Positions 39,251 through 56,313 of a stretch of 64,000 bases of DNA are shown here, one piece after another. Source of the DNA: Halomonas chromatireducens. Lineage in GTDB: Bacteria > Pseudomonadota > Gammaproteobacteria > Pseudomonadales > Halomonadaceae. Within the stretch, counting starts at the first letter, position 1, and every line of letters begins with the position of its first letter. Location: NCBI RefSeq assembly GCF_001545155.1, contig NZ_CP014226.1:3629174-3693173 (forward strand). Reading direction: 5' to 3'. The position numbers and the translations under genes were made by a program. The notes below the pieces were generated by a model. It was not told where the DNA came from and did not search any database. It saw nothing but the letters and a program-made list of their open reading frames with translations.

Positions 39251-39630
39251 GGGGGCGACATGGCTTCGACGCCGGTGACAACCTCCTAGGTGCATGCCGA
39301 GAGCGTGATGTATCTCGTAAATCCAACATCACGACTAAATAGTCGCAAACGACGACAACTACGCTCAGGGCGCGCTGGCAGCTTAATAGCTGTTAGCTTC
39401 TAGCCCGGCCCCGAAGCGATGTGCCCATTCATTGCGGACGGGATATGAGCTAAAAATGATGGGATCGCGGTTGGTGGTGTCCTCTCGCCAGTCGCTAAAT
39501 CTTAGAGGAATCGCGTAGCTGGATCCTGCCCGTTGGAGCCAGATGCGTTAAATCAAAAAACGGACCTAAGCATGTAGAGCCGAAGAGCGAGTACCGGCGG
39601 ACGCGGGTTCAATTCCCGCCGCCTCCACCA
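39251..39630 (+). ncRNA. ssrA: tmRNA (SsrA)
   Basis: The 380-base gene begins GGGGGCGACATGGCTTCGACG and ends with the T-arm GGGTTCAATTCCCGCC, acceptor and CCA (39628-39630). The tag frame resumes at GCA 39345-39347 and encodes ANDDNYAQGALAA with TAA at 39384-39386; the ALAA end is the protease degron. An extended -10 (TGATATGAT, 39231-39239) lies upstream. The 3' end is the attachment site of the island that follows. Confidence 0.97.
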
Positions 39631-39631
39631 A
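39617..39631. repeat. attL of the ssrA island
   Basis: CGCCGCCTCCACCAA spans the end of the tmRNA acceptor arm and CCA. The identical 15 bases recur at 56299-56313 in the same orientation. Confidence 0.92.
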
Positions 39632-39677
39632 ACCAAGGTTTCAGGAGGTTCCACAACACTTCAGAAACCGCATGAAC

Positions 39678-39698
39678 AGGGGCCTCCGGGCCCCTTTC
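39678..39698 (+). terminator. Island-borne replacement terminator for ssrA
   Basis: AGGGGCC-TCCG-GGCCCCT followed by TTC lies 48 bases after the tmRNA 3' end and within the island. It can end ssrA transcription after the native terminator was displaced to beyond attR. Confidence 0.7.
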
Positions 39699-39725
39699 TC
39701 GTGTCTGGACATTTCACAACATTCC

Positions 39726-39911
39726 TTGACATGCCCCCACCTGAGGGGGCATATCTGGGGGCACAGCGTCGAAGCCAACCACCTGATGCCCCCAACTCCG
39801 CCATACCCCGCGCCAACCGGGCCTGGCTGGCAAATCGCCTGCCCCCAGCCTTGGGGGCATCCGGCACAGCTGAAAGGGGGCATGAGGCTGTCACCATCGT
39901 GAGGTGCCCCC
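39726..39911. promoter_or_regulatory. Cluster of eight TGCCCCC motifs with an embedded promoter
   Basis: TGCCCCC or its complement starts at 39732, 39745, 39757, 39787, 39840, 39853, 39876 and 39905. The first two form the inverted repeat TGCCCCC-N6-GGGGGCA exactly between TTGACA (39726-39731) and a -10-like CATATCT. The cluster lies 100-280 bases from attL, where integrase arm-type and excisionase sites are expected; repressor operators are the alternative reading. Confidence 0.6.
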
Positions 39912-39949
39912 ATGAGCGTAAGCGACCGGGCATCACCGCTTGTCAGTGA

Positions 39950-40081
39950 TCAGGCAGTATGCTGCCAGTGGTGAGGCAGGAGTTCGTGGATCTGGCTGGC
40001 CTTCTGGGTCGGCAGCCGTTCCAGCACGTCTCGGAGATAGGCGTGACGGCGAATCTCACCCTGAGTGCTTGGGGTAGTCAT
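39950..40081 (-). pseudogene. IS66-family transposase C-terminal remnant
   Basis: Read on the minus strand, the frame encodes RRHAYLRDVLERLPTQKASQ followed by IHELLPHHWQ and a stop. This is the conserved C-terminal element of IS66 TnpC proteins (AYLRDVL.RLP....IDELLPH.W). Only about 36 residues are left; nothing of the DDE domain, tnpA or tnpB is nearby. The ATG that opens the frame is fortuitous. It marks an older insertion in the island's left end. Confidence 0.7.
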
Positions 40082-40084
40082 GAT

Positions 40085-40114
40085 AGGTGCCCATCTATTA
40101 ATAAGTGGGCACCT
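40085..40114. promoter_or_regulatory. Perfect 9-bp inverted repeat upstream of the integrase
   Basis: AGGTGCCCA (40085-40093) and TGGGCACCT (40106-40114) flank an AT-rich 12-base loop. It lies 54 bases before the integrase start. It could be an operator or a hairpin in the integrase leader; there is no U-tract. Confidence 0.5.
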
Positions 40115-40167
40115 AACGTCACAGAAGGCGAGCCTCTCCGGTAGATGGGTTCACCAGCCGGTTACCC

Positions 40168-41397
40168 ATGAGCCGCCAGACCAATAAGCTATCTGCCACC
40201 GCCGTGAAGATGGCCAAGCCCAGAGAGAAAACGTTCAAGATGACTGATGGGGGCGGCCTCTACCTGGAGGTCTCCCCTACCGGCAGCAAGTACTGGCGCA
40301 TGAAGTACCGCCACGCCGGCAAGGAGAAGCGTCTGGCCATCGGCGTCTACCCGGATGTCTCGCTGGTGAAAGCGCGAGAAGCCCGCGAGGACGCCAAGCG
40401 ACAGCTTGCCCAGGGCATCGACCCCAGCACCGCCAAGCGCATCGCTCGCCAGCATGGCGAACAATCCGCCGCCAACACCTTCATGACCGTGGCTATCGAG
40501 TGGCTGGAGAAGGTTCACCAGCATGAGGTGGTGCCGGCCCACTACCAGCGCAACAAGCGTCGCCTAGAGCGAGACGCTTTCCCGATCATCGGCAAGCGCC
40601 CCATCGCCGAGATCACCCCACCCGAGCTGCTGGGCTGCCTGCGCCGTATCGAAGAGCGCGGCCACGTCGAGACTGCCCACCGGGTGAAGACGCTGTGCGG
40701 CCAAGTCTTCCGCTACGGCATCTCCACCGGGCGCGTCGAGCGTGACCCGACACCTGATCTGCGCGGAGCCCTGCGGCCCAGCAAGACCAAGCACTACCCT
40801 GCCCTGACACACCCCAAGGAGGTGGCCGAGCTCCTGCGCGCTATTGATGGCTATGGCGGCCAGCCCACCACCATCGCTGCACTAAAGCTGGCGCCCCTGG
40901 TTTTCACTCGCCCAGGCGAGCTGCGCCAGGCCCGCTGGGCCGACATCGACCTGGAGGCCGCCACCTGGACCTTTGAGGCCAGCAAGACCGGGCAGCCCTT
41001 GATTGTCCCCCTGCCCCACCAAGCAGTGACGATCCTGTGCGATCTGCACGGCTTAACCGGGCGCACCGAGTTCGTTTTTCCCGGCATCCGCAGCAGCAAG
41101 CGCCCGATGAGCAACGCCACGATCAAAGCCGCGCTGGATCGCATGGGCTTCAAGGGTGAGATGACAGCACACGGATTCAGGGCCATGGCCCGCACGATCC
41201 TGGCCGAGCGACTGAACTATCCCGAGCACTACATCGAGCAGCAGCTGGCGCACGCGGTGAAGGACAGCAACGGCCGCGCCTATAACCGGACCTCGCACCT
41301 GGAGCAGCGCCGAGAGATGTTGCAGTCATGGGCCGATTACCTGGATGCCCTGAGAGGTAGAGCAGACAACGTGGTACCGATCCAAACCGGCACTTGA
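40168..41397 (+). CDS. int: Tyrosine integrase (P4/CP4-57 type, DUF4102)
   Basis: A 409-residue site-specific recombinase. The N-terminal DUF4102 domain (LSATAVKMAKPREKTFKMTDGGGLYLEVSPTGSKYWRMKYRHAGKEKRLAIGVYPDVSL) binds arm-type sites; a SAM-like core-binding domain spans about 105-190. The catalytic set is Arg in RPGELRQARW (about 248), HGFR (about 335-338), His in LAHAVKD and nucleophile Tyr in RAYNRTSH (about 372). Its position next to attL in ssrA fits its presumed target; no SD is obvious, with an ATG start. Confidence 0.95.
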   Translation: MSRQTNKLSATAVKMAKPREKTFKMTDGGGLYLEVSPTGSKYWRMKYRHAGKEKRLAIGVYPDVSLVKAREAREDAKRQLAQGIDPSTAKRIARQHGEQSAANTFMTVAIEWLEKVHQHEVVPAHYQRNKRRLERDAFPIIGKRPIAEITPPELLGCLRRIEERGHVETAHRVKTLCGQVFRYGISTGRVERDPTPDLRGALRPSKTKHYPALTHPKEVAELLRAIDGYGGQPTTIAALKLAPLVFTRPGELRQARWADIDLEAATWTFEASKTGQPLIVPLPHQAVTILCDLHGLTGRTEFVFPGIRSSKRPMSNATIKAALDRMGFKGEMTAHGFRAMARTILAERLNYPEHYIEQQLAHAVKDSNGRAYNRTSHLEQRREMLQSWADYLDALRGRADNVVPIQTGT

Positions 41398-41510
41398 GAC
41401 AAGCGGCAACAACGCCACCGTTGGCTGGCAAGGGCTAATAGCCCGAAAGCATGGCCACTCCACCATGCTCGCCAGCCTTTCCTTACCTGGAACGCATGAG
41501 GAGTAGCGCA

Positions 41511-42146
41511 ATGTCTGATGACGAGCAGCAATTCGGGCTAGACATACCCGCCACTATCCAGCGCCGTGGCCAAGGTCTGATTGATGGTGCGATGAAGGGT
41601 CACTCCAAGAAGGTGACAGCCGAACACCTGGAGATGATCGACAAGGACGGCAGCCTTATCCATGGCAAGGAGATGCTGCTACAAATGGCCTATGAGCTTC
41701 GGCAGCTGCCTTCATCGGATGCAGATGAGTCCTCCTCCTCGGAGTATGCGGCCAGCATGTGCTTGGGGATGGTCCGCCAGCTATGGACACATATCCCTGA
41801 CAAACAACTGGATCCGATGAGCAACGGTCAGTTTCTGCTGGTTCTAGGGTATCTCTACGGGACACTGACCATGCCCAGCCACGTCCGACATAGCAAGGCG
41901 GTTGAAGCTGAGATAAAGGTCCTTCAAGGCAACTTGAAGCGCCAGGTTGGAGGGCTCCGCGGGGCAGAAACGAAGAAAGCCACCGCAGCCGAGCGGAAGG
42001 TCGTGGCCAAGCGGATATGGGACGAACTGGCAGCGACTAGGCCAACGCATGGCCTATCCGTGATCGTCGCCAAGCGCATGACCGCCATGGGTATGAAAGT
42101 AACAGCCAAGACAATCAGGAAGTGGCGTAAAGGAGGCTGGCAATAA
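41511..42146 (+). CDS. Hypothetical protein, island
   Basis: 211 residues from the ATG at 41511 (GAGGAG seven bases upstream; an in-frame ATG at 41496 is less well placed). I do not recognise the family. The N-terminal part is acidic (SDDEQQFGLDIPATIQRRGQGLIDGAMKGHSKKVTAEHLEMIDKDG). The C-terminal 80 residues are basic: VEAEIKVLQGNLKRQVGG..KKATAAERKVVAKRIWDELA, then a possible small helix-turn-helix, VTAKTIRKWRKGGWQ, as in proteins that bind DNA. It follows the integrase by 113 bases. Confidence 0.6.
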   Translation: MSDDEQQFGLDIPATIQRRGQGLIDGAMKGHSKKVTAEHLEMIDKDGSLIHGKEMLLQMAYELRQLPSSDADESSSSEYAASMCLGMVRQLWTHIPDKQLDPMSNGQFLLVLGYLYGTLTMPSHVRHSKAVEAEIKVLQGNLKRQVGGLRGAETKKATAAERKVVAKRIWDELAATRPTHGLSVIVAKRMTAMGMKVTAKTIRKWRKGGWQ

Positions 42147-42254
42147 CGGAAACGAACAAGTACTAAGCACAACGGACATTTCGGCATTTAGAATTCGCCA
42201 TGTCAGCACGTCCCGTGAGGGATATAGACACTCCATTCCGAGAGGAACCGAGAC

Positions 42255-42512
42255 ATGGCAAATATCATACGCGAGGCCATCGAGCGTAAGCAGCAGCGCC
42301 TCCTCCGCCGCCCCGATGTTCTACATCGCTGCGGCATATCCAACTCCACCCTCCATCGCCTGATCAATACAGGGGACTTTCCGGCGCCAGTCCCGCTGAG
42401 CCCCCGCGCCGTCGCATGGGTCGAAACTGAGATCGATCACTGGATCGAGGAACGAATTTCACAGGCTCGACCCAACCGGAATGGCGCGAACTGCCTCGGA
42501 GGGACTCAATGA
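42255..42512 (+). CDS. AlpA-family transcriptional regulator/excisionase
   Basis: An 85-residue MerR-like winged helix: LLRRPDVLHRCGISNSTLHRLINTGDFPAPVPLSPRAVAWVETEIDHWIEERI is the AlpA pattern (RR..V....G.S..T.YR....G.FP.PV.L..RAV.W...EI..W). AlpA activates slpA integrase in CP4-57, and relatives act as excisionase. An SD GAGAGGAACC lies before the ATG. Its stop overlaps the next start (ATGA). Confidence 0.9.
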   Translation: MANIIREAIERKQQRLLRRPDVLHRCGISNSTLHRLINTGDFPAPVPLSPRAVAWVETEIDHWIEERISQARPNRNGANCLGGTQ

Positions 42513-42646
42513 TGAAATTTCATCCCTTTAACTTTGATGCCCTGGTTAGCGACACCTTCGCACTCTGCCGATGGCTCGCCAAGCATGTTCGACGCTGGCA
42601 TCAGGCGCACGCGAACAAGAACCACCGTCGAGATGACCGGAGGTAA
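42509..42646 (+). CDS. 45-residue hypothetical protein
   Basis: A short frame starting at ATGATG that overlaps the alpA stop and ends six bases before the primase gene; the primase SD (GGAGG) forms its last codons. The sequence is MMKFHPFNFDALVSDTFALC then RWLAKHVRRWHQAHANKNHRRDDRR: hydrophobic N-terminal half, strongly basic His/Arg-rich end. Tight overlap at both sides argues that it is translated. Function unknown. Confidence 0.55.
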   Translation: MMKFHPFNFDALVSDTFALCRWLAKHVRRWHQAHANKNHRRDDRR

Positions 42647-42651
42647 TCACC

Positions 42652-45114
42652 ATGACGAGCATAAAAAAACCGGCCCCCTCGGGAGGGCCGGCACAAGCGC
42701 CTGTGAGCGCGATTTCTTCACGACATTCTACACCTTCCAGCGAGCTGGCGCCCCTAATGGCGCCCGTCGCACGCGAGCTGCTGGGCGAACCAAACAAGGA
42801 GCTCTCACGGAAGGACGAGCTGCGTTTCGGTACCCACGGTAGTCTGGCCATCGATCTCGATGCCGGTACTTGGTACAGCCACGAGGAGCAGCGTGGGGGA
42901 GGTGTGCTGGACCTGATTAGCCGGGAGACTGGACGCGGCGAGCGCCACCTTCAATTGGCCTGGCTGGAGGAGAGCGGCTTTCGTGATAAGCAAGAGTCGG
43001 CACCTAAGCCCCAGCCACTCATTGAGGTAGAGCGGTACCGCTACAACGATGCCCAAGGTAGCCCGAGGTTCTTTGTCGTCAGGTTCGAGCCCAAGACCTT
43101 CCGCCAGGGAGATGTCAATGAGCATGGCCGTTTCGTCCCGGGGGTGAAGGGAATCGAGACGCGCATCCCGTACCACCTCGACAAACTCTACGCCCAGCCC
43201 GAGGCCGATGTGTTCTTGGTCGAAGGGGAGAAGGACGTTCATCGGCTAGAACAGCTTGGCATATTGGCCACCTGCAACGCGGGTGGTGCCGGGAAGTGGA
43301 CCGACGAGCACAGTCGGCACCTGGCAGGTCGGCGTGTGGTGATCCTGCCGGACAATGACGAGCCAGGTATCGACCATGCGCGGAAGGTGAAGGCCTCGTT
43401 GGAGGCAGCTGAAGCCGAGGTGCTGGTGGTCCTGCTGCGCAACCTGCCGGAAAAGGGCGATGTGAGCGATTGGCTCGACGCTGGCGGCACGCTAGGGCAG
43501 CTTCAAGACCTTATCACTCAGGGTGGTCACGAGCTGCCCAAGGTGGAGCTCGAGCCTGAGCTGGAAAGCCAGGGGGAGGGCAACCGTGATAAGCAGTCCC
43601 AAACCGACCTGATCGTCGAGTTCGTACAGACCTGGAACGACCTGTTCCACGATGACAACGATGTTGCCTATGCCCGCCATCGAGGCACCGGCGAGGTCCG
43701 CGCCCTCGGTAGCCGAGCGTTTCGGCACTGGCTGACGGCAGAGTTCTATGACCAGCACGAGAAGGCGCTGCGAGACCAATCGCTCCGCGAAGCCCGGATG
43801 ACCCTCGAGGGCATCGCGATGAAGGACCATCGCCCGGTTCATATCCGTGTGGCCGGCGGGAGCGGTCGCTACTGGCTCGACCTTGGCCTCCCAGGCAGTA
43901 GCCGCTGCGTTTTCCTCCGCGCTGACGCATGGAGCCTGGAGGAGCAGAGCGAGCTGATGTTTTGCCGGTCGGAGAGCGCTCAGGCCCTGCCGGAGCCGGT
44001 GGCTGGCGGCAGCCTTGAGCCGCTGTGGAAGGTGGCCAACGTCCCTGAGCAGGCCCGGCTGCTGGTGGTGGCGTGGCTGGTGGAGTGTCTGCGTCCCGAT
44101 ACGCCCTTCCCGGTGCTGGAGCTGCTGGGGGAGCAAGGCAGCGGCAAGTCTGGCACGCAGTCGGCACTGCGTCGGCTAATCGACCCCAATGCAGCTGACC
44201 TCAGGGGCGCCCCCAAGTCTGCAGAGGACCTGTTTGTGAGCGGTGGCGTCAACCACGTGATCTCCATCGAGAACGTGAGCCACCTCCCGGCTCCGTTGCA
44301 GGATGCACTGTGCGTAGTGGCGACCGGGGGCGGGTTCGCCCGGCGCAAGCTGTACACCGACGCCGACGAGAGCGTGATCCAGCTCAAGCGCCCGGTGATG
44401 CTCAACGGTATCTCCGCCGCCGTTACGCAACAGGACCTGGTGAGCCGTACCGTCACGGTCGAGGTGCCGGTGATCCAAGACGCCCAGGCCAAGGACAAGC
44501 TGGAGGAGGAGTTCGAGGTCAAGCGGCCTGAGATCATCGGCGCCCTGCTGGACATCGCCGCCCGCGCCCTGGAGATCCTGCCGGAGATGTCGCTGCCGGC
44601 GGCACGCCGCCCCCGTCTCCTCGAGTTCGCACACCTCGGCATGGCCGTCGCCAAGGCAATCGGGCGCGACCCGGAGGAGTTCATGCGGCAATACGATGCC
44701 GCCCGGCAGGATGGGCTCGAGCGCACCCTCGAGGCGAGCCCAGTGGCGACCGCCATCCGGGACTGGGCGGAGATCCACCCCGGCGAGGTGCGCGACGAGC
44801 CGGCCAAGCGGTGGCTGGAGATCCTGACGGACTACAAGCCCCAGGGGTCGGATACCTGGCCGCGCTCCGCGAAGGGGTTGGGCGATGCGATGCGCAGGGC
44901 AGCACCCGCCCTTCGACAGCTGGGCATCGAGTGCCGCTGCTTCGGCAAGGGGAGCGGAGGTGTCGTGCGGTGGCGCGTGGGAATAAAAGTTCCTGAAGCG
45001 ATGTCCCCAATGTCCCGAAGTCCCAAGTCTGATGCCGATAGTTGGGACATTGGGACTTCAGGGACATCGGTTCGGGAAGTTTCCTTGGGCGATGCCGACC
45101 GGGAGGTGTTCTGA
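42652..45114 (+). CDS. Toprim primase / P-loop helicase-like replication protein
   Basis: An 820-residue protein, likely the island's replication initiator. The N-terminal part (about 45-115) resembles a degenerate primase zinc/CHC-like region without Cys clusters; a Toprim fold follows with VEGEKD (about 188-193) and PDNDEPG (about 232-238). A P-loop ATPase begins about 485: LLGEQGSGKSGTQSALRR (Walker A about 491-500), then VISIENVSHLP as Walker B-like and a sensor region. This DNA-primase-plus-ATPase layout is seen in phage satellites and cryptic islands. The last 40 residues (SPMSRSPKSDAD..IGTSGTS) are encoded by the GTCCC/GGGAC array. GGAGG precedes the ATG. Confidence 0.82.
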   Translation: MTSIKKPAPSGGPAQAPVSAISSRHSTPSSELAPLMAPVARELLGEPNKELSRKDELRFGTHGSLAIDLDAGTWYSHEEQRGGGVLDLISRETGRGERHLQLAWLEESGFRDKQESAPKPQPLIEVERYRYNDAQGSPRFFVVRFEPKTFRQGDVNEHGRFVPGVKGIETRIPYHLDKLYAQPEADVFLVEGEKDVHRLEQLGILATCNAGGAGKWTDEHSRHLAGRRVVILPDNDEPGIDHARKVKASLEAAEAEVLVVLLRNLPEKGDVSDWLDAGGTLGQLQDLITQGGHELPKVELEPELESQGEGNRDKQSQTDLIVEFVQTWNDLFHDDNDVAYARHRGTGEVRALGSRAFRHWLTAEFYDQHEKALRDQSLREARMTLEGIAMKDHRPVHIRVAGGSGRYWLDLGLPGSSRCVFLRADAWSLEEQSELMFCRSESAQALPEPVAGGSLEPLWKVANVPEQARLLVVAWLVECLRPDTPFPVLELLGEQGSGKSGTQSALRRLIDPNAADLRGAPKSAEDLFVSGGVNHVISIENVSHLPAPLQDALCVVATGGGFARRKLYTDADESVIQLKRPVMLNGISAAVTQQDLVSRTVTVEVPVIQDAQAKDKLEEEFEVKRPEIIGALLDIAARALEILPEMSLPAARRPRLLEFAHLGMAVAKAIGRDPEEFMRQYDAARQDGLERTLEASPVATAIRDWAEIHPGEVRDEPAKRWLEILTDYKPQGSDTWPRSAKGLGDAMRRAAPALRQLGIECRCFGKGSGGVVRWRVGIKVPEAMSPMSRSPKSDADSWDIGTSGTSVREVSLGDADREVF
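45003..45065. repeat. Symmetric GTCCC x3 / GGGAC x3 array (candidate origin)
   Basis: GTCCC at 45003, 45012 and 45020; GGGAC at 45044, 45052 and 45061. The spacings (9, 8 and 8, 9) mirror each other around a 19-base centre. It lies within the last codons of the primase gene. Such iteron-like arrays at the end of an initiator gene often act as its origin; this is inference. Confidence 0.6.
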
Positions 45115-45115
45115 G

Positions 45116-45445
45116 ATGGCTGCTATCGACTACCTCAAGCTGCACCACCTCAATGCAGAGATCGAGAAGAGCAACCGGCTGGCCGTGTGGCCCAAGGAAA
45201 ACATCACCCCCGTGGTGCGGGAGTGGATCAGGGCTCACCGCACCGAGCTACTGGAGGAGCTGGCTACCGCCAACGATCCTGAGCCTCCTTGCTTGCCGGC
45301 AGGCATCCGTATGGCGTGGACGATCCGTGTGGGAAGCAAGCGCCTGGTGCTGGCCGGTATCCCATATACCCGAGAGCAGGCCCATCGGGCTGCCCAGGCT
45401 CGCTGGCCTGACGCTGACGTGGAGGTGCTGACCGATGCTGATTAA
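45116..45445 (+). CDS. TubC-docking-like small protein, island
   Basis: 109 residues from the ATG just after the primase stop. The N-terminal 50 (IDYLKLHHLNAEIEKSNRLAVWPKENITPVVREWIRAHRTELLEEL) resemble the small helical TubC N-terminal docking-like domain that is commonly annotated in phage and island proteins beside primases; there is no polyketide context here. The C-terminal half (AWTIRVGSKRLVLAGIPYTREQAHRAAQARWPDADVEVL) looks like a separate small domain. The role is unknown, possibly a primase partner. Confidence 0.6.
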   Translation: MAAIDYLKLHHLNAEIEKSNRLAVWPKENITPVVREWIRAHRTELLEELATANDPEPPCLPAGIRMAWTIRVGSKRLVLAGIPYTREQAHRAAQARWPDADVEVLTDAD

Positions 45446-45941
45446 CGAAGCCCTCCATGAAGCCCGCCGCCTTCAGTCCAGCTTGCGCGCCATGCACGTT
45501 GATCGAGCAACTCTGGATGAGGCCGATCTGCTCTCTCGCGCACTGCAGCACGACCCTGTCGAAAATGTACTGCCGTTTGCCCTCGACGCGTTGGAGCGTA
45601 TTGATGACCACCTGCCGGCGGGTACGCTCGCCGGACTGGTCAGGGTGCGGATCAGGAGCCTGGTAGGCACCCTGCAGGCGATCAGCGATCGCCGCGCCCA
45701 GGTGACAATCACCCACGGCGCAGCGCTTACGCCGCGCACACTGCAGCAGGCTGCCATCAACGGCGCCGGAACGGGCTGCCTCAGCCCCTCTCAGGCCTGG
45801 GCCGCCTGGCGACTGGCGATCCCGGTGGAACGCCTGCAGCAGCCCCTCTCGGCTCGCGTCGCGAGAGTGCTGGATCGGGTTAGACGCCTCGGTGTCACCG
45901 GTCAGTATCTGGCTGAGGGGCTCCGGGCAAACGCCAGATGA
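45435..45941 (+). CDS. Hypothetical protein, island
   Basis: 168 residues, overlapping the previous gene by 11 bases. I do not recognise the family. It is predicted mostly helical (LHEARRLQSSLRAMHVDRATLDEADLLSRALQ, VRIRSLVGTLQAISDRRAQV), cytosolic, with no transmembrane segment or catalytic motif. Co-directional overlap with the primase cluster suggests a replication or packaging accessory. Confidence 0.55.
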   Translation: MLINEALHEARRLQSSLRAMHVDRATLDEADLLSRALQHDPVENVLPFALDALERIDDHLPAGTLAGLVRVRIRSLVGTLQAISDRRAQVTITHGAALTPRTLQQAAINGAGTGCLSPSQAWAAWRLAIPVERLQQPLSARVARVLDRVRRLGVTGQYLAEGLRANAR

Positions 45942-46047
45942 CAGCAGCCAGCCACGCTCGCCAGGCACCAACGTCCATCCCCCATTGACGACCGCCGGCC
46001 CCGGCGTAAGCTGGGGCTATCACCATGCCATCCGGGAGGATCGCACC

Positions 46048-46587
46048 ATGAGCAAGTACGACTGGGAAGCCATTGAGCGCGACTACCGCGCCGGCCAGCT
46101 CTCCATCCGCCATCTCGCCACTAATCACGGCATCCCCGAATCAACCGTTCGCAGCAAGGCCAGAGCGCTGGGCTGGCAGCGGGATCTCACTGAAGATGTC
46201 CGAGCGGCGACCCGAGCCAAGCTCTCGCGCAGTTCGCGCACGGATCTCGCGCATGCAGATGATGCGCAAATCGTCCAGGCGGCCAGTGACGATGTGACCT
46301 CAATCGTCGAGGCCCACCGTAAGTCTATTGCCCAGTGGCGGTTGATCGCCGAGCGCCTGGCCCAACACCTGGCCACCATGGAGATCTCGGACGACAACCA
46401 CGACAAGTTCTCGCGCAGCCTCAATGCCGGCATCGACGCCATGATGAAGCTCGTGAAGGGAGAGCGGCAGGCCTATCAGCTTGATGAGGAGCAGCCAGCC
46501 GACTCCGAAAACCCCTACGCGCATCTGAGCGACGAGGAGCTTCACAGCCGCATCCGTGAGCTCACCAAGAAGCTCGGGATCTCCTGA
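46048..46587 (+). CDS. Terminase small subunit-like DNA-binding protein
   Basis: 179 residues from the ATG at 46048, preceded by GGGAGG. The N-terminal helix-turn-helix YDWEAIERDYRAGQLSIRHLATNHGIPESTVRSKARALGWQRDL is the pattern of many phage terminase small subunits (W..IE..Y..G..S.R.IA..HG.S...I...A...GW.RDL). The middle is a helical oligomerisation-type region and the C-terminus (YAHLSDEELHSRIRELTKKLGIS) is acidic then basic. No large terminase is nearby. In PICI-type satellites a solitary TerS redirects helper-phage packaging. Confidence 0.65.
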   Translation: MSKYDWEAIERDYRAGQLSIRHLATNHGIPESTVRSKARALGWQRDLTEDVRAATRAKLSRSSRTDLAHADDAQIVQAASDDVTSIVEAHRKSIAQWRLIAERLAQHLATMEISDDNHDKFSRSLNAGIDAMMKLVKGERQAYQLDEEQPADSENPYAHLSDEELHSRIRELTKKLGIS

Positions 46588-46783
46588 CACTCTGACCACA
46601 GCGGCCAGTACTCCACTGGCCGCCGCGGCCGACCCTAGTTCAGCTCTGGCAACTGAATCGGCCTTCCTTAGTTACCGTTAGCCCGTGAAGAGCACCTTTC
46701 GCGGTACAGCAGGGCGTGCAAGTCTGTCAACGGCCACAGACGTCTAAGCTGAGGAGCACATCGCCCAGAATAGGAAAGCCGCC

Positions 46784-47268: not shown

Positions 47269-49248
47269 GTGAACACGGAGAGTCACTCTCAGCTGGCGGC
47301 CTTCATCTGGTCCGTGGCGGACCTGCTGCGCGGCGATTTCAAGCAATCCCAGTACGGCCGCATCATTCTGCCCTTCACCCTGCTGCGACGCCTGGAGTGC
47401 GTGCTGGAGCCCACCAAGGCCGACGTGCTGGGTGCCGCGCGGGAGCATCAGGCCAAGCCCGACGCCGTGCGCGAGAAGCTGCTGCTGCGCGCCGCCGTCC
47501 AGCCCTTCTTCAACGCCTCGCCGCTGACCCTGGGCAGCCTCTCCGACACCCAGACCGCCGACGACCTGATGAGCTACGTGCAGTCGTTCAGCCAGGACGC
47601 CCGGGAGATCTTTGAGCACTTCGAGTTCGAGGGCTTCGTCCAGCAGCTCTCGGCCAACAACCTGCTCTACCAGGTGGTGCAGCGCTTCGCCGCCATCGAC
47701 ATGAGCCCGAAGCGGCTCTCCAACTACGGAATGGGCCTGGTGTTCGAGGAGCTGATCCGGAAGTTCGCCGAGAGCTCCAACGAGACGGCGGGGGAGCACT
47801 TCACCCCGCGCGACATCGTCCACCTGACCACCTCGCTGGTGCTCACCGGCCAGGACGACAAGCTTCGCCCCCACGGCATCGTCACCGTCTATGATCCCAC
47901 GGCGGGCACCGGCGGCTTCCTCTCCGAGAGGGACGAGTATATCCAGCAGGGCAGCCAGGGGGTGACCGTCTCGCTGCACGGCCAGGAGCTCAACCCCGAG
48001 TCCTACGCTATCTGCAAGGCCGACATGCTGATCAAGGGTCAGGCGGTGGAGCAGATTAAGCTCGGCAACACCCTCTCCGACGACCAGCTCCCCGGCGAGC
48101 ATTTCGACTTCATGCTCTCCAATCCGCCCTTCGGCGTGGAATGGAAGAAGGTGCAGAAGGCGATCACCGATGAGCATAACCACAAGGGCTACGAGGGCCG
48201 CTTCGGCCCCGGTCTGCCGCGGGTCTCCGACGGCTCGCTGCTGTTTTTGATGCACCTGGTGAGCAAGATGCGTCCCCGCCAGGAGGGCGGCTCGCGCATC
48301 GGCATCATCCTCAACGGCTCGCCGCTGTTCACCGGCGGCGCCGGCAGCGGGGAATCGGAGATCCGCCGCTACCTGCTGCAGCACGACCTGGTGGAGGCCA
48401 TCGTCGGCCTGCCCACCGACCTCTTCTACAACACAGGCATCGCCACCTACGTGTGGATCCTCTCCAACCACAAGCCCGCCGAGCGCCGCGGCCAGGTCCA
48501 GCTGATCAACGCCACCGGCCGGGCCAGCAAGATGCGCAAGTCGCTGGGCAGCAAACGCCAGTTCGTCGCCGACCGCGACATCGAGGAGATCGTGCGCCTC
48601 TACGGCGCCTTCCAGGAGAGCGAAGAGAGCAAGCTGTTCCCTGTGGAGGCCTTCGGCTACCGGCGCATCACCGTGGAGCGCCCGCTGCGCCTCAACTTCC
48701 AGGCCAGCCCCGAGCGCCTGGCCCGGCTCGATGACGAGAAGCCGCTCCAGAAGCTCGACGAGGCCGAGCGCGAGGCGATCAAGGCCGCCTGCGCCACCCT
48801 GGACCCGGAGCAGCGGTTCACCAACCATGATGCCTTCCTCAAGTCGCTAAAGGCCGCCTTGAAGGAGGCTGGCCTGAAGATCGGCGCCCCGGTGCAGAAG
48901 GCCATTCTCAGCGCCCTCTCCGAGCGTGACCCCGAGGCGGGCATCTGCCGGGACAAGCAGGGAAACCCGGAGCCCGACACCGGCCTGCGCGACAACGAGA
49001 ACGTGCCGCTGGGCGAGTCGGTGTTCGACTACTTCGAGCGCGAGGTGAAGCCCCACGTACCCGACGCCTGGATCGACGAGGAGAAGCGCGACCCGCTGGA
49101 TGACCGTATCGGCATCGTCGGCTTCGAGATTCCCTTCAACCGGCACTTCTACCAGTTCAAGCCTCCGCGCCCGCTGGAGGAGATCGACGCCGACCTCAAG
49201 GCTTGCACCGATCGGATCAAACAGATGATCGAGGAGCTGTCAGCATGA
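47269..49248 (+). CDS. hsdM: Type I restriction-modification, DNA methyltransferase subunit
   Basis: HsdM transfers methyl groups from SAM to adenine N6 within the HsdS-specified site. The 659-residue protein has the N-terminal HsdM helical domain ([35 protein letters not shown]), SAM motif [10 protein letters not shown] (about 209-218) and catalytic NPPFG (about 285-289). It is about 130 residues longer than E. coli HsdM, with an extra C-terminal segment (about 490-620). The GTG start has GGGGAAG upstream. It overlaps hsdS by ATGA. Confidence 0.95.
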
Positions 49249-50609
49249 GCTTCCCGCCGTACCCCGAATACAAGGACTCCGGCGTCGAGTGGCTGGGGGA
49301 GGTGCCGGCCCATTGGCAAAGTAAAAGGTTGAAATTTCTTTTTGATATTCAAAAACGTGGTGTCAGAGAGGAAGATCAAATAGTTACGTGCTTCAGAGAT
49401 GGCATGGTCACGCTTCGTAAAAACCGTCGCTCAGAAGGTTTTACGAATGCGCTGCAGGAAATTGGTTACCAAGGTATTCGCTCAGGCGACTTGGTTATCC
49501 ACGCCATGGATGCATTTGCGGGTGCAATCGGGGTATCCGATTCAGATGGAAAGTCTTCACCTGTCTACTCTGTTTGCGTTCCGGTATCCCCTGATGTGTC
49601 TCCTTATTACTATGCCAGGCTACTTCGACACATGGCGCTGTCTGGGTTTGTGGCGTCGTTGGCGAAAGGTATCCGGGAAAGATCTACAGACTTTAGATGG
49701 ACTGATGCTGCAGAAATATTCTTGCCGGTGCCAACGGCTGATGAGCAAGTAAAAATCACCAGATTTCTCGACCACGAAACCACCCGCATCGACGCCTTGG
49801 TGAAGGAACAGCAACGACTGATCGAGCTGCTCAAGGAGAAACGCCAGGCGGTGATCTCCCATGCCGTCACCAAGGGACTGGATCCCGATGTGCCGTTGAA
49901 GGACTCCGGGGTGGAGTGGCTGGGTGCAGTGCCGGCACATTGGGAAGTTGGGCGCGTGAAGAATGTAGCCTCATTCATAACTTCTGGTCCACGGGGCTGG
50001 TCTGATTATCTTACCGAATCTGGCGAGGAGATTTTTGTTCAGAGCGGTGACCTAGATGATCATATTGGCGTCAACTTTGAGAATGCGAAACGTATACGCT
50101 CTCCCATGGGTGCTGAGGGAGCCAGGACTCGAATAAACTGTGGTGATGTGCTTGTTTGTATAACCGGCGCCAACACCGGGCGAGTAGCAGTATCCGACCT
50201 CCCGCCAGTCTCAGCTTTCATAAATCAGCACCTGTCTCTTGTTCGGCTTAATCAGGTTAATGCTTTACCTGAATTTGTGGGCTATGCGCTGTCTTCAGAA
50301 TCAATTCAGTCGTTTTTTAGGGTGGAGCAATATGGTTTGAAGGAAGGGCTAAGCCTGAGCGACGTTGCTGATGCCCCTTTGGTGCTTCCTCCGAAATATG
50401 AGCAAGAGCTGGTAATGAAGTACCTAAAAGACCAGACCCAGCGCCTGGATCGTCTAGCTATAGACGCAGAACGATCTGTTGAATTGCTCCAAGAACGTCG
50501 ATCTGCCCTGATCTCCGCGGCCGTGACCGGCAAGATTGATGTCCGCGGCTGGCAGCAACCGGCGGGCTTATTGGCTCCCGCTGAAACCACCCAGACGGAG
50601 GCGGTATGA
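49245..50609 (+). CDS. hsdS: Type I restriction-modification, specificity subunit
   Basis: HsdS selects the bipartite target for HsdM and HsdR. The 454-residue protein has two target-recognition domains, each introduced by the same block, KDSGVEWLG(E/A)VPAHW (about 8-24 and 218-234), and each followed by a conserved coiled-coil spacer ([62 protein letters not shown]). TRD DNA (about 49320-49770 and 49950-50420) is distinctly AT-richer than the spacers, as expected from TRD exchange. It overlaps hsdM and the next gene by four bases each. Confidence 0.95.
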
Positions 50610-51550
50610 CGCAAGGACGCAGCATCCGGCTCTTTCTGGTGGACGGCACGCCCAATGGCCTGCTCACCGCCGAGATTATGAACTGGACCGGCCATGTGCT
50701 CACCGGGCCGCGCAGCAAGCTCAGCGAGCTGGTGCAGCGCCCAGAGTGCGGCCGCACCGGGATCTACTTCCTGGTCGGCCCGGATCCCGAGAACAGCCTG
50801 CGCCCGCTGGTCTACATTGGTGAGAGCGACGACGTAAGCACCCGCCTCAAGCAGCATAACCGCCCAGAGGCTGTTTCTGGCTCCGGTGGCGGCAAGGATT
50901 TCTGGGAGAAGGTCTGCCTGGTCACCAGCAAGGACCAGAACCTGACCAAGGCCCACGTGAAGTACCTGGAGAGCCTGCTGATCCAGAACGCCGGCCAGGT
51001 AGGTCGCTGCAAGCTGATCAACGGCACTGCCCACGATTACGTCAACCTGCCAGAGTCTGACCGCGCCGATATGGCGTTCTTCGTCGAGCAGATCCGCACC
51101 GTGCTGCCGGTGCTGGGCTACGACTTCCTGCGTGAGACCTCTCGCCCCTCACGGGCACCGGAGGCAACCCCGGCTACCGAGCTAGAGGCATCGCCCCGCT
51201 TCACCCTGGAAGTGCCGCGTCACGGCATTCGCGCCACTGGTCAGGAGATCGACGGCGAGTTCTATGTCTTTAAGGGCTCTCTGGCCCGGGGCAACTGGGT
51301 CGGCACCGAGCGCGGCTACCAGAGCCTGTACAACCAGCTCTGCGAGGATGGTGTGCTGGTGGAAGGCAGCAACGACACCCGAGTCTTCAACGAGGACCAG
51401 AGCTTCAGTAGCCCCAGCGCCGCCGCCGCGGTGGTCTCCGGCCGCAGCGCCAACGGCCGAACCTCCTGGAAGGCGGAAGACAGTGGCCTGACCTACGGGG
51501 AATGGCAGGATCGCCAAGTGAGTGTTGCGGTTAATGAAGCAGGTGAATAG
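50606..51550 (+). CDS. GIY-YIG nuclease domain protein with DUF4357
   Basis: A 314-residue protein with an N-terminal GIY-YIG nuclease (GIYFLVGP at about 52-59, LVYIGESDDVSTRLKQH at about 68-84, with Arg and later Glu of the active site: YLESLLIQNA) and a C-terminal DUF4357-like region (FYVFKGSLARGNWVG..YQSLYNQLCEDGVLVE). Its ATG overlaps the hsdS stop, so it is made together with the R-M specificity subunit. This family is often found inside type I loci; a nicking or restriction-accessory role is inference. Confidence 0.85.
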   Translation: MTQGRSIRLFLVDGTPNGLLTAEIMNWTGHVLTGPRSKLSELVQRPECGRTGIYFLVGPDPENSLRPLVYIGESDDVSTRLKQHNRPEAVSGSGGGKDFWEKVCLVTSKDQNLTKAHVKYLESLLIQNAGQVGRCKLINGTAHDYVNLPESDRADMAFFVEQIRTVLPVLGYDFLRETSRPSRAPEATPATELEASPRFTLEVPRHGIRATGQEIDGEFYVFKGSLARGNWVGTERGYQSLYNQLCEDGVLVEGSNDTRVFNEDQSFSSPSAAAAVVSGRSANGRTSWKAEDSGLTYGEWQDRQVSVAVNEAGE

Positions 51551-51568
51551 AAAAGAGCAGAGGGTGGA

Positions 51569-52309
51569 ATGGGCGATTTTGGAGAGTATATTATTTACGT
51601 GGATGAAAGCGGTGATCATGGTCTCAGGAACATTAACCCTGACTACCCCGTTTTTGTCTTGGCCTTCTGTATTATCCACAAGCAAGATTACCTTACTCAG
51701 ATTGTGCCTAAATTACAAGAGCTGAAGTTCCGCTATTTTGGCCATGATATGGTTGTTCTTCATGAGGCAGAGATACGCAAGTCAAGAAAGCCATTTGATA
51801 TTCTTCTCAACCCTAACGTCAGGCGTGATTTCATGGGAGACCTATCTGCTATTATAGAGAACTCTCCTTTCACCCTAGTGGCTAGTTGCATCATGAAAGA
51901 AGAGTTTTCAAAGAAGCATGGTGTTGATGGAAACCCTTATCATGTTGCGATGGAATTTGGCCTGGAGCGCGTCTTCATGGAACTGCAAAGTCGTCGCCAA
52001 CGTGGCCAGCTAACCCATGTGGTTTTTGAGCAGAGAGGGCTACAAGAGGATCAAGCTCTAGAACTTGAGTTTCGACGCATCAAAGACCGGTCACGGATGG
52101 AAGGCTTGGAAGAAACGCTGGATATTGTCATGGCCAGCAAGAAAGTGAATTCGGCGGGTCTGCAGCTAGCCGACATGGTGGCACGCCCCATAGGTCGGCA
52201 CCTATTGAACCCTGGTCAATCCAATCGAGCCTACGATATTCTTAATGGCAAATTCCGGCGTAGTCGGGCGGGCCAGATCAAGGGGTGGGGGCTGAAGGTA
52301 TATCCTTGA
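51569..52309 (+). CDS. DUF3800 domain protein
   Basis: A 246-residue protein with the RNase H-like DUF3800 features: acidic start YVDESGDHG (about 10-18), VLAFCIIHKQDYL, the helical YHVAMEFGLERVFMEL and the closing HVVFEQRG.. and ASKKVNSAGLQLADMVARPIGRHLL (acidic D in LQLADM). DUF3800 proteins are frequent in defence islands and are presumed nucleases. The gene is AT-rich compared with its neighbours, suggesting separate acquisition. It lies 18 bases after the GIY-YIG gene; GAGGGTGGA precedes the ATG. Confidence 0.85.
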   Translation: MGDFGEYIIYVDESGDHGLRNINPDYPVFVLAFCIIHKQDYLTQIVPKLQELKFRYFGHDMVVLHEAEIRKSRKPFDILLNPNVRRDFMGDLSAIIENSPFTLVASCIMKEEFSKKHGVDGNPYHVAMEFGLERVFMELQSRRQRGQLTHVVFEQRGLQEDQALELEFRRIKDRSRMEGLEETLDIVMASKKVNSAGLQLADMVARPIGRHLLNPGQSNRAYDILNGKFRRSRAGQIKGWGLKVYP

Positions 52310-52648
52310 AAACAAAAGGCCCCGACGCATTCGCCGAGGCCCCTTGCCGATCGGGCATTCCCAATCCATAGTCATATGATAGGCAGTCAGGCCGATCATG
52401 GCAACCACAGCGGCTCGCCCGGCAACAACACCCCCCCACGCCTCTCTCGGAAGCGCACCTTGGGGGGTTACTTTCCTCTGGTCAGCGCTGCCGGGTGATC
52501 CAGCGGGAGTCGATAGCATGGGAGTGGCTTCCCTGACGACTGGCGACAACGCTCCTCTGTGGGGAATATCTCAGCCTAAGTAGGCTTCTCCTCCTACCCC
52601 TAAAGCGCTACGCTGTTACGAATAATTACGCCAAGTGCAGGGGATACC
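52310..52648. other. 339-base intergenic region before hsdR
   Basis: There is no credible gene. It holds one hairpin at 52318-52341 (GGCCCCGACG-CATT-CGCCGAGGCC) that pairs fully (with two G-U pairs) only as minus-strand RNA, followed by TTTTGTTTTC on that strand; on the plus strand it has two mismatches. So it may be a terminator for an antisense or unannotated minus-strand transcript. Otherwise I see only the region expected to carry the hsdR promoter. Confidence 0.4.
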
Positions 52649-55600
52649 ATGGCGGACAGCAGGGAAGCCCGCTTCCAGCAGGACATCATCGAGGCCATGA
52701 CGGCCCACGGCTGGAAGGCCGGCATCGCCAGCGGCTTCGATCGCGCCTCGGCGCTCTACACCGAGGATCTGCTCGGCTACGTGCGGGAGGCCTGGCCGGA
52801 GCGCTGGGAGAAGTTCTGCAAGGCCAACCCCCAGGCGCCAGAGTCGGTGTTCGTGAAGAAGGTAGTGCGCGAACTGGAGCGGGCCGGCACGCTGGAGGTA
52901 CTGCGCCACGGCTTCAAGGTGCCGGGAGTAACGTTCGGCCTGTGCAGCTTCCAGCCTGACCACGGCATGAACCCCGACTCCCTGGCTCGCTACCGCGCCA
53001 ACCGCCTACGGGTGGTGCCGGAGGTCTCCTACTCGCCCCACGCCCGCGAGAAGGGCAAGGGCAGCGAGAGCTCTGGTCGTAACTACAACCCCCGCCTGGA
53101 CCTGGTGCTGTTCGTCAACGGCATCCCCACCGCGACCCTGGAGCTCAAGAGCCAGTTCAAGCAGACGGTGGAGAATGCCAAGCGGCAGTATCGCCAGGAC
53201 CGCCCGATCAAGGACCCCGTCACCCGCAAGCCGGAACCGTTGCTGACCTTCAAGCGCGGCGCCTTGGTCCATTTCGCGGTTAGCCAGGCTGAAGTGGCCA
53301 TGACCACCAAGCTGGCCGGTAAGGATACGTACTTTCTGCCCTTCAACCGCGGCTCGGAGGAGGGCGGCGCCGGCAACCCGCCCGCGCAGGATGAGCAGAG
53401 CTACGCCACCGCCTACCTGTGGGAAGAGGTGTTCTCACCGGACGCCTGGCTGAAGGTGCTCGGCCGCTTCCTGCACCTGGAGAAGACGACCACCGAGGAC
53501 TTCCACGGCTGCCGCAGCGTCAAGGAAACGCTGATCTTCCCGCGCTATCACCAGTGGGAAGTGGTCAACCGCCTGATCCAGGGCACCCTGACTGAGGGGC
53601 CGGGGCGGCGCTACCTGGTGCAGCACAGCGCCGGCTCAGGCAAGTCCAACTCCATCGCCTGGGCCGCCCACCAGCTGGCCAATCTCTACGGTGATGACGG
53701 CAAGAAGCTCTTCAATTCGGTGATAGTGGTCACCGACCGCACGGTGCTCGACAGCCAGCTTCAGGACACCATTTACCAGTTCGAGCATGCCCACGGCGTG
53801 GTCTGCCCGATCACCCGCGACATCGGCAACCAGAGCAAGTCGGAGCAGCTCGCCGAGGCCCTGGCTAGCAATACACGGATTATCATCGTCACCATTCAGA
53901 CCTTCCCGGCGCTGTTCGATGCCCTGGACAAGCGACCACAGCTCGCCGAGGGCAATTACGCGGTGATCGCCGACGAGGCCCACTCCTCGCAGACCGGCAG
54001 CTCGGCCAGCAAGCTCAAGGCGCTGCTGGCGGCCGCGGGAGAGGCCACAGAGAGCGATAGTGACGAAATCAGCGCAGAGGCCATGCTTGACGCCGCCGTG
54101 GCCTCACGGCGCCCCAGCGAGCGGATCAGCTACTACGCCTTTACCGCCACCCCCAAGGCCAAGACCCTGGAGCTGTTCGGCCGCCCGCCGGATCCGGATC
54201 TGCCGGCCAGCGCCGATAACAAGCCCGAGCCGTTCCATCTCTACTCCATGCGCCAGGCCATCGAGGAGGGCTTTATCCTCGACGTGCTCAAGAACTACGT
54301 CACTTACAGCACCGCCTGGAAGCTGGCCCATCCCGAGGGCGAGGAGCAGGAGGTCGATTCCAAGAAGGCCTCTCGCACCCTGGCCAAGTGGGTGCGCCTG
54401 CACCCCTACAACATCGCCCAGCGGGTTGAGGTGATCGTCGAGCACTACCGCGACAACGTCCGCCACCTCCTCGATGGCCAGGCCAAGGCTATGGTGGTCA
54501 CCGCCAGCCGCCAGGAGGCGGTGCGCTACCAGCTGGCCATGCAGGGCTACATCAAGGACAAGGGTTACGAGGACGTACACCCCATGGTGGCCTTCTCCGG
54601 CAGCGTGCCGCCCGACGAGGTGGTTCCCGAGGAGGTCACCGAAACCAGCCGGCTGCTCAATCCCGGGCTCAAAGGACGCGACCTGGCTGAGGCGTTCGAT
54701 ACTGCCGACTTCAACGTGATGATCGCCGCCAACAAGTTCCAGACCGGCTTCGACCAGCCTAAGCTCTGCGCCATGTACGTGGACAAGAAGCTGCAGGGCG
54801 TGGACTGCGTGCAGACCCTCTCGCGGCTCAACCGGCTATTCCCCGGCAAACAGACCTTCATCCTCGATTTCTACAACGACGAGCAGGAGATTCTCGACGC
54901 CTTCGCCCCCTATTACCGCAAGGCCGAGCTGGCCGACGTCTCTGATCCCCAGGTGGTCATCGATCTGCAGCGCAGCCTGGACGCTAGCGGCATCTACCAC
55001 TGGCCCGAAGTGGAAGCCTTCGCCAAGGCCTTCTTCGACCCCAAGGCGCCGGCATCGAGTCTCAGCTACCACTGCCGTCCCGCCCAGGACCGCTTCAAGC
55101 AGCGCTACCGGCTGACCTTGGAGCAGCTGCAGACCTGGAAGGAAGCCCGCCAGATCGCCGAGGGCAATGGTGACGACAAGGGCCTGAAGCGCGCCGAGCA
55201 GGAGCTCAAGGAGGCCGGCACCACCCGGGACGAACTCGACCTGTTCCGCAAGAACCTGCAGAGCTTCGTGCGCGCCTACGAGTTCCTCAGCCAGATCGTC
55301 ACCTTCGACGACTCCGAGCTGGAGCAGCTGTGCGTCTACGCCCGCCACCTCTACCCGCTGCTGCGTACCGACCGCCTGCTGGAGGAGGAAGCCATCGACG
55401 TCAGCGAGCTGGAGCTGACCCACTACCGGCTTACCAAGCGCGAGGAGAAGCGCCTGCAGCTCGAAGAGGCCGATGGCGACTATGGCCTCCAGCCGGTCAG
55501 TGAGGTGGGCTCCGGCAAGCCCTTTGATCCCGAGAAGCAGCGCCTGGCCGAGATCATCGACCGGCTCAACGACCTCTACGGCGCCGAGGTCAGCGACGAC

Positions 55601-55858
55601 GACAAGCTGCACTTCGCCAACGGCATCGCCGACCGCATCGAACGCGACGAGGCCGTGATGGCCCAGGTGCGCAACCACAGTGAGGACCAGGTGATGCACG
55701 GCCTCTTCCCGAAGGAGGTCACCGAGGCCGTGCTCGACGCCATGAACGACCACGAGAAGCTCAGCATGCCACTGCTGGAGGACGAGGAGACGGGCAGGAA
55801 GTTTGCGCTGCTGATCCTCAAGCTGCTGGCGGGGAGGGAAGTACAAGCGCAACGGTGA
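52649..55858 (+). CDS. hsdR: Type I restriction-modification, restriction subunit
   Basis: HsdR translocates and cleaves unmethylated DNA. The 1069-residue protein has the RecB-like nuclease PRLDLVLFVNGIPTATLELKS (about 149-169, D..ExK), then a superfamily 2 helicase: Walker A HSAGSGKSNSIAW (about 324-336), DEAHSSQTG (about 441-449), FTATP (about 497-501) and FQTGFDQPKLCAMYVDK. A C-terminal helical domain (about 830-1069) binds HsdM. The frame is intact. It is separated from hsdS by two cargo genes and a 339-base gap. Confidence 0.95.
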   Translation: MADSREARFQQDIIEAMTAHGWKAGIASGFDRASALYTEDLLGYVREAWPERWEKFCKANPQAPESVFVKKVVRELERAGTLEVLRHGFKVPGVTFGLCSFQPDHGMNPDSLARYRANRLRVVPEVSYSPHAREKGKGSESSGRNYNPRLDLVLFVNGIPTATLELKSQFKQTVENAKRQYRQDRPIKDPVTRKPEPLLTFKRGALVHFAVSQAEVAMTTKLAGKDTYFLPFNRGSEEGGAGNPPAQDEQSYATAYLWEEVFSPDAWLKVLGRFLHLEKTTTEDFHGCRSVKETLIFPRYHQWEVVNRLIQGTLTEGPGRRYLVQHSAGSGKSNSIAWAAHQLANLYGDDGKKLFNSVIVVTDRTVLDSQLQDTIYQFEHAHGVVCPITRDIGNQSKSEQLAEALASNTRIIIVTIQTFPALFDALDKRPQLAEGNYAVIADEAHSSQTGSSASKLKALLAAAGEATESDSDEISAEAMLDAAVASRRPSERISYYAFTATPKAKTLELFGRPPDPDLPASADNKPEPFHLYSMRQAIEEGFILDVLKNYVTYSTAWKLAHPEGEEQEVDSKKASRTLAKWVRLHPYNIAQRVEVIVEHYRDNVRHLLDGQAKAMVVTASRQEAVRYQLAMQGYIKDKGYEDVHPMVAFSGSVPPDEVVPEEVTETSRLLNPGLKGRDLAEAFDTADFNVMIAANKFQTGFDQPKLCAMYVDKKLQGVDCVQTLSRLNRLFPGKQTFILDFYNDEQEILDAFAPYYRKAELADVSDPQVVIDLQRSLDASGIYHWPEVEAFAKAFFDPKAPASSLSYHCRPAQDRFKQRYRLTLEQLQTWKEARQIAEGNGDDKGLKRAEQELKEAGTTRDELDLFRKNLQSFVRAYEFLSQIVTFDDSELEQLCVYARHLYPLLRTDRLLEEEAIDVSELELTHYRLTKREEKRLQLEEADGDYGLQPVSEVGSGKPFDPEKQRLAEIIDRLNDLYGAEVSDDDKLHFANGIADRIERDEAVMAQVRNHSEDQVMHGLFPKEVTEAVLDAMNDHEKLSMPLLEDEETGRKFALLILKLLAGREVQAQR

Positions 55859-55902
55859 AACGCTATGCAGGCACGGATAGTGCTGCCTTTCAGTAAAATG
55901 AC

Positions 55903-56184
55903 ATGGGGCGCGATATGGAGAGCTTTGAGCAGCGGGGTTGGGGTGTTCGAGAACTGGCTAAGGGGCTATTTCTCGATTACATGCGGTCGCGGCCGGAATG
56001 CCAGCCTGGGCAGGAAGGAATCAGGCTCGCGCGGATATTTAGGGATTGTGGTTTGGGTTGGGGAGACCAACTGAAAGCTACCGAGTCCAACCAGCAATAC
56101 TGGGGTGTTGCCATCATGCGCACTCTCGAAGCCGAAGGCCTGACTGAGAGAGTCGGCGAGAGCGGACCATGGCGTTTGCGCTGA
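55903..56184 (+). CDS. Small hypothetical protein at the island right end
   Basis: 93 residues (ATG at 55903; an ATG four codons later is equally possible; no clear SD). Unrecognised: FEQRGWGVRELAKGLFLDYM, then a Glu/Arg-rich helix and a short C-terminal block EAEGLTERVGESGPWRLR that resembles a winged-helix end. It is the last frame before attR; possibly a DNA-binding protein, but it could also be untranslated. Confidence 0.4.
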   Translation: MGRDMESFEQRGWGVRELAKGLFLDYMRSRPECQPGQEGIRLARIFRDCGLGWGDQLKATESNQQYWGVAIMRTLEAEGLTERVGESGPWRLR

Positions 56185-56216
56185 TCCATCAAGGTTGCGG
56201 CAGAAGCCGCCCTAAA

Positions 56217-56234
56217 GGGGCATATCTGGGGGCA
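56217..56234. repeat. 18-bp direct repeat shared with the island left end
   Basis: GGGGCATATCTGGGGGCA is identical to 39746-39763 and in the same orientation. It lies 65 bases inside attR; the left copy is 115 bases inside attL. This is the expected layout of integrase or excisionase arm sites. Confidence 0.75.
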
Positions 56235-56298
56235 TCTCTAAGAAGATGGAATTTATAAATCCTATTTATTCAATATGTTATAAATATTTTTCACGGGA

Positions 56299-56313
56299 CG
56301 CCGCCTCCACCAA
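56299..56313. repeat. attR of the ssrA island
   Basis: CGCCGCCTCCACCAA, identical to 39617-39631. Upstream bases do not continue the tmRNA sequence, so this is the partial right copy. Confidence 0.92.

Follow-up and report, generated by a model that had tools for sequence, protein, structure and literature searches.

A candidate TerS-encoding phage satellite with a type I restriction-modification cassette at ssrA of Halomonas chromatireducens

Build of the island

The chromosome of Halomonas chromatireducens forms a single contig of 3.97 Mb (NZ_CP014226.1), and the stretch of 64,000 nucleotides analysed here (positions 3629174-3693173, referred to as the window) contains an island inserted at ssrA, the gene for tmRNA. 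The target gene lies at 39251-39630 of the window, on the plus strand (ARAGORN; Rfam RF00023, 218 bits). Its end, together with one further base, forms the 15-bp attL core CGCCGCCTCCACCAA (39617-39631), by which the 3' end of ssrA is rebuilt after insertion, and a second exact copy at 56299-56313 forms the attR core (both on the plus strand). The genome contains no further exact copy. The unit between the att cores comprises 16,682 bp, is 90% coding and has a GC content of 61.4% (63.8% in the flanks used). All 14 called genes are intact open reading frames (ORFs) on the plus strand, arranged in the order int, a putative regulator, alpA, primase-helicase, terS and a type I restriction-modification (R-M) cassette with two embedded genes.

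The int gene (40168-41397) encodes a tyrosine integrase of 409 aa with an arm-binding domain (PF22022, PF13356, PF00589; phrog_1). It is followed by orf231 (41451-42146), the putative regulator, with HTH_3 in five of the ten homologs listed and homologs at 33-44% identity in the islands L124, L125 and L055 described below, and by alpA (42255-42512; PF05930, E 5e-17), a member of the excisionase/activator family. The primase-helicase (42652-45114; the database gene call starts 35 codons later) combines, according to profiles and structure, a DnaG-type TOPRIM with a SaPI5/D5-like helicase fold. Its profile matches are to TOPRIM families only, with Toprim_2 over the cut-off, and the structural best match is the helicase of the satellite SaPI5 (PDB 7ola, 7om0), from which the protein differs by the DnaG-type TOPRIM in its N-terminal part and by a mere 9% identity in the aligned part. 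A sequence search of the PDB gave no match for the primase or for TerS. Of the smaller genes, orf109 (45116-45445) follows the primase in related loci, its longer ORF being TubC_N-like below the cut-off; orf168 (45435-45941) has a homolog in L037; orf132 (46784-47182) has no family over the cut-off, and orf93 (55903-56184) no family match.

Profile scans (Pfam and PHROGs) covered the 14 called genes and one overlapping 82-aa ORF. No capsid, portal, tail, lysis, TerL or relaxase/transfer family was found over the cut-off in any of the 14 genes. Integrase relatives occur on plasmids, all below 60% identity, which would fit an integrative mobilisable element moved by conjugation, but with no relaxase or transfer family in the unit, and with the primase matching the TraI tail just weakly and far below that model's cut-off, such an element is hardly credible.

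Both island ends carry repeats. Beside attL, five GGGGCAT/ATGCCCC motifs are found at 39731-39883 in the order -,+,-,+,+, and at the right end the segment 56211-56234 (plus strand, motifs at 56217 and 56229) matches 39740-39763 at 92%. Half of the copies of the motif in the window (7 of 14) are located at these two ends. The attL-side order, with spacing that hardly differs between the elements, is seen in four of seven elements (the island, L124, L055 and L037; absent in L034, L035 and L051), and the 12-bp spacing of the right-end motifs is also present in L055. Because the arrangement resembles arm-type integrase sites, the motifs are probably binding sites of the integrase/AlpA.

An earlier reading of the window, made from its letters alone (the sequence-only reading), had described two attachment repeats bounding a 16.7-kb ssrA unit with integrase, AlpA, primase-helicase, TerS and type I R-M genes and with no structural phage or conjugation genes. 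The exact repeats and the profile searches bear this out, and the present analysis adds the arm-type repeats at both ends, two cargo genes between hsdS and hsdR, and an abiF-family RNA.

TerS and the restriction-modification cassette

The terS gene (46048-46587) encodes a terminase small subunit of 179 aa (phrog_1206, E 9e-37), the sole match to this model in the host genome. Over 91% of the query length, the protein is 48% identical to TerS of Pseudomonas phage PS-1, and metagenome proteins reach 87% identity to it. Relatives are present in 25 of 275 genomes of the family (27 matches, including the island's own). Of the 26 other loci, 16 show a TerL match in the fetched stretch and are therefore regarded as prophages. 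The ten without one comprise L128 and L130, which resemble prophages that use a different TerL (on the basis of a portal match for L128 and by eye for L130), five islands (L123-L126 and L129; type I R-M genes are nearby in four), and L134, L147 and L148, which were assigned to neither class. The gene is intact in four islands; relative to L123, L124 and L125, dN is 0.28-0.39 and dS 0.80-1.35 (dN/dS ~0.2-0.5), values that indicate purifying selection in all three comparisons made.

A phage-type TerS could also be left over from a prophage in decay whose structural genes have disappeared, and an ssrA element of genome G001, which has a 37% identical integrase with capsid and TerL genes, would agree with such an origin. 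Decay is nevertheless very improbable: none of the 14 genes is broken, 90% of the unit is coding, and the satellite-type gene order recurs in other islands. In addition, the primase-helicase matches 65 phage records, each over less than 80% of its length, and a tally of genera shows no phage of Pseudomonas, Erwinia or Enterobacter among them.

At 46000-46075, a stretch of 35-52 bp at the terS start is common to the window, L123, L124 and L125, without being clearly present in the prophage copies compared. It is possibly an operator, a pac site or a leader; it was not called pac because the ribosome-binding region and the first codons are included in it. A single origin of the satellite TerS was also considered and set aside: in a tree of 21 rows (nine copies, L134, L137, L139-L142, L145, L147 and L148, were left out) the satellite label is clustered (2 changes, with 0 of 500 shuffles as low) but does not form one clade.

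The cassette begins with hsdM (47269-49248; PF02384, PF12161; PADLOC MTase_I, E 6e-282), whose stop is overlapped by hsdS (49245-50609; PF01420; PADLOC Specificity_I), and ends with hsdR (52649-55858; PF18766, PF04313; TIGR00348 E 6e-46, below its cut-off). By family matches HsdM, HsdS and HsdR are full-length, and all three type I subunits are present. Between hsdS and hsdR lie the two cargo genes, one for a GIY-YIG/DUF4357 protein of the PADLOC candidate defence family PDC-S14 (50606-51550, E 1e-133; S14 hereafter) and one for a DUF3800 protein (51569-52309; PF12686, E 2e-20). The R-M system likely protects the host from other phages.

DUF3800 relatives are found in 22 of the 275 genomes (the island's host included), and the whole hsdM-hsdS-S14-DUF3800-hsdR set is present in six further ones (G454, G034, G467, G436, G473 and G033). 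The identity of these cassettes is 69-95%, except for HsdS (33-40%), which thus diverges fastest, as expected for type I specificity. The DUF3800 gene of G033 is spread over different frames, the hsdR match of G467 breaks off close to the end of its contig, and the contig of G436 starts within hsdM. At the six loci, 14.6-20 kb were read without an int or terS match; the cassette therefore exists outside this satellite too. The remaining DUF3800 relatives are ~46-55% identical, and at 13 such loci (L164-L176) no cassette is seen in the short stretch read, apart from one hsdS match at 27%.

Downstream of the DUF3800 gene and inside the cassette, an abiF-family RNA is found on the plus strand (52432-52468; Rfam RF03085, 39.7 bits for a cut-off of 37, no broken pair). 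Three of the six related cassettes pass the RF03085 cut-off and four have the motif by alignment (it is missing from L161 and L163). In C. difficile such an RNA is described as the antitoxin of AbiF, an Abi_2-family protein (PMC12373285). The profile search found no Abi_2 match among the 14 genes of the island, and the open-access literature searched gave no mention of DUF3800 together with abiF. In L125, a PD-(D/E)XK_4 nuclease gene (15752-16843) is located between S14 and hsdR, in place of the DUF3800 gene and the RNA. It is conceivable, though quite unlikely, that the TerS-bearing islands of Halomonadaceae form a distinct satellite lineage with a type I R-M exchange slot after terS and, jointly, that DUF3800 and the abiF-family RNA form a new RNA-protein module, in which the RNA would be partnered by DUF3800 or would be an orphan antitoxin letting satellite and host escape AbiF-type abortive infection.

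Related islands, the ssrA site and the candidate helper

The islands that share terS differ in their other parts. L123 is a complete 15.47-kb unit at a tRNA gene between 40-bp repeats, with an integrase, a primase, orf109, terS (66%) and a distant type I R-M set (HsdM, HsdR 25%). L125 comprises an integrase, terS (57%), hsdM (85%), S14 (79%) and hsdR (81%). L124 is inserted at ssrA and has int (88%), alpA (79%), terS (56%), hsdM (86%) and an hsdS, followed by genes that look transposase-like by eye; its primase differs from that of the island (Toprim_3 and DUF927). In L126, terS lies beside another distant type I R-M set, and no integrase was found by similarity to the island's int in ~48 kb. 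The stretch read of L129 contains genes resembling int and alpA and gave no R-M match.

Within the genus, the first 30-46 bases of the right-hand flank of the island are placed directly at the ssrA end in 10 of 29 ssrA loci (L003-L031), namely L004, L008, L009, L011, L012, L013, L015, L020, L028 and L031, with an exact ssrA-flank join in L004 (G005); in L005-L007 the flank begins ~100 bp downstream of ssrA. Further DNA may sit beyond the join, as the next flank gene is 12.5 kb off in G020 and two more ssrA-end copies are present in L028. Among 34 longer ssrA regions, compared only against the island's own genes, five have an integrase 70-89% identical to the island's adjoining ssrA (G006, G016, G033, G031 and G021; contig ends truncate the regions of G006 and G031), G004 retains a 25-residue remnant and G001 has the 37% identical integrase.

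Several of these sites show other structures. In the close relative G028 (L040), ~107 bp of the left end of the island follow ssrA without a right end, probably a deletion scar. The element of G001 (L051, contig C4, 1086-10268) measures roughly 9.9 kb, with its right end placed by eye, and encodes an integrase, a split primase and helicase, a scaffold-like protein, a major head protein (phrog_247, E 1e-94), TerS and TerL; no portal or tail was found among the nine ORFs scanned, and it looks like a satellite-type element of small size that codes for a capsid. Several copies of the ssrA 3' end stand nearly in tandem at 13079-13472 of L037 and 1029-1350 of L052, probably as traces of repeated insertion. 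The ssrA gene is accordingly a site common to TerS islands, islands with P4-type RNAs (see below) and a capsid-coding element.

As to a helper, a prophage of G529 (L127) encodes a TerS 53% identical to that of the island and a TerL 82% identical to PS-1 TerL, and a TerL_6N gene is present in 25 of 81 genomes of the genus. The PS-1 genome has 48,666 bp, 2.9 times the length of the island, a size that would fit headful packaging of about three island units. The helper would be a PS-1-type phage. The genome G529, which has this PS-1-like prophage, also contains a terS copy (L134) with the end of an island-type hsdR ~9 kb away, possibly a satellite relic.

A number of results weigh against a packaged satellite. 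Two sister islands at ssrA, L055 and L037, have integrases 88-89% identical to the island's and no terS match, so this integrase does not require terS. In L124, hsdR and the right end were not found, and the 20 kb that follow contain no att core. The phrog_1206 model matches in 2 of 14 control genomes as well, 11 of 18 inner branches of the TerS tree are open, the predicted TerS structure has moderate confidence (pLDDT 73) and one weak viral match in the fold search (a terminase small subunit, E 6e-5, TM-scores 0.37/0.26), and one pattern scan of IMG/VR matched 11 stretches, none of which encodes a TerS relative. The candidate origin of the sequence-only reading found no backing, as no iteron array is present in the five short regions examined, and no pac site was identified in the island. 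No helper is in sight: of the two TerL types searched for, the host genome has no TerL_6N gene (the profile matches in 6 of 14 controls), and a search without a positive control revealed no counterpart of the PS-1-type TerL of L127.

The sisters also bear RNAs. L055 (16033-16215, 17301-17371) and L037 (2531-2601, 4636-4818) contain a C4 antisense RNA, isrK-like and int-alpA RNAs typical of P4-type regulation (the int-alpA RNA of L037 scores below the cut-off). The two show no terS match, and islands that differ in their regulation share one integration module. In view of these sisters, with L055 sharing the integrase, alpA, primase and R-M genes, and since no resident helper was found, the island could be an integrative defence island of P4/CP4-57 type, capable of excision and integration and no longer, or never, packaged, with terS captured or idle. 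This is rather unlikely, as terS is kept intact under apparent purifying selection and is found again next to primase or R-M genes in islands that have different integrases and occupy different sites (L123, L125), and no C4 RNA is found in L124, L123 or the window, where lax limits in 39632-47300 gave none either. The island is probably a TerS-encoding phage satellite, resembling the phage-inducible chromosomal islands (PICIs), that is integrated in Halomonas ssrA and carries a type I R-M cassette. The sequence-only reading had suggested a helper-dependent satellite that pays for itself with defence. Its anatomy stands: the unit is free of structural and conjugation genes, and relatives with an empty ssrA site exist, as the ten direct joins indicate. 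The island is a well-supported candidate satellite, with helper dependence, packaging and defence as inferences.

Proposed cycle and comparison with known systems

Upon helper infection AlpA would be induced and, together with Int, would excise the element, which the primase-helicase would then replicate. TerS would bind a site on the island DNA and direct a helper TerL of PS-1-like type to headful packaging. A head of PS-1 size (48.7 kb) would hold roughly three units (50 kb), so that no capsid-resizing gene would be needed. In a new cell, insertion at ssrA would follow, with the host protected against other phages and the island itself protected by modification. This would extend TerS-type phage satellites to Halomonas and name a PS-1-like terminase as the helper type, and the recurrent proximity of terS to type I R-M genes agrees with the idea that defence is how satellites repay their hosts. 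No phage satellite in Halomonas is described in the literature searched (open-access full text only, hence not proof of novelty).

P4 has immunity by a C4 antisense RNA and the genes psu, sid and delta, and capsid-forming PICIs (cfPICIs) have their own capsid and TerL genes. With P4-like satellites the island shares AlpA, an integrase of the PRK09692 kind (match below the cut-off) and, in two sister islands, the C4 RNA; it differs by terS and by having no detected C4 RNA of its own. The general profile scans revealed no psu, sid or delta family among the 14 genes, these not being searched by name, and no capsid or TerL family of the cfPICI kind.

The criteria for Gram-negative PICIs are a conserved order of integrase, replication module and master regulator, the absence of phage structural and lytic genes, att sites never occupied by prophages, a typical size of 12-15 kb, and excision, packaging and transfer under helper induction (PMC6092414). 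The island has int, alpA and primase-helicase in this order and no structural or lytic genes in its 14 called genes, and with 16.7 kb is slightly larger; among the 34 ssrA regions, compared with island genes only, G001 has capsid, TerS and TerL genes at the site. EcCICFT073 and its kin likewise have int, an AlpA activator, a replication module and, in some, terS, at a similar size and without structural or lytic genes (PMC6092414), whereas the island lies at ssrA in Halomonas and has a PS-1-type TerS followed by type I R-M, a comparison made by description and not by gene homology to EcCICFT073.

The satellite phiAH14b of Pseudomonas sp. ANT_H14 (KU708005; 16,812 bp) has been reported in heads of a 55-kb helper as probable trimers (PMC4936722). 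It shares int (43.5%), an orf, alpA (38%), primase and helicase with the island and differs in having an 18-bp att and no terminase gene; the primase, terS and R-M genes of the island have no significant match there. The phage-inducible chromosomal minimalist islands (PICMIs) of Vibrionaceae share int, alpA, a primase and type I R-M among their cargoes, and their concatemer packaging without capsid remodelling would have its counterpart in the island; they differ in that the model requires fis, in other primase families and, for PICMI115, in a size of ~6 kb without terS (PMC10803314); instead of a fis insertion and a DUF3987/DUF5906 primase, the island shows ssrA and TOPRIM families only. Gram-negative PICIs, phiAH14b and PICMIs are thus the closest precedents, and in its mode of action the island would be nearest to phiAH14b and the PICMIs, to which it adds a self-encoded TerS.
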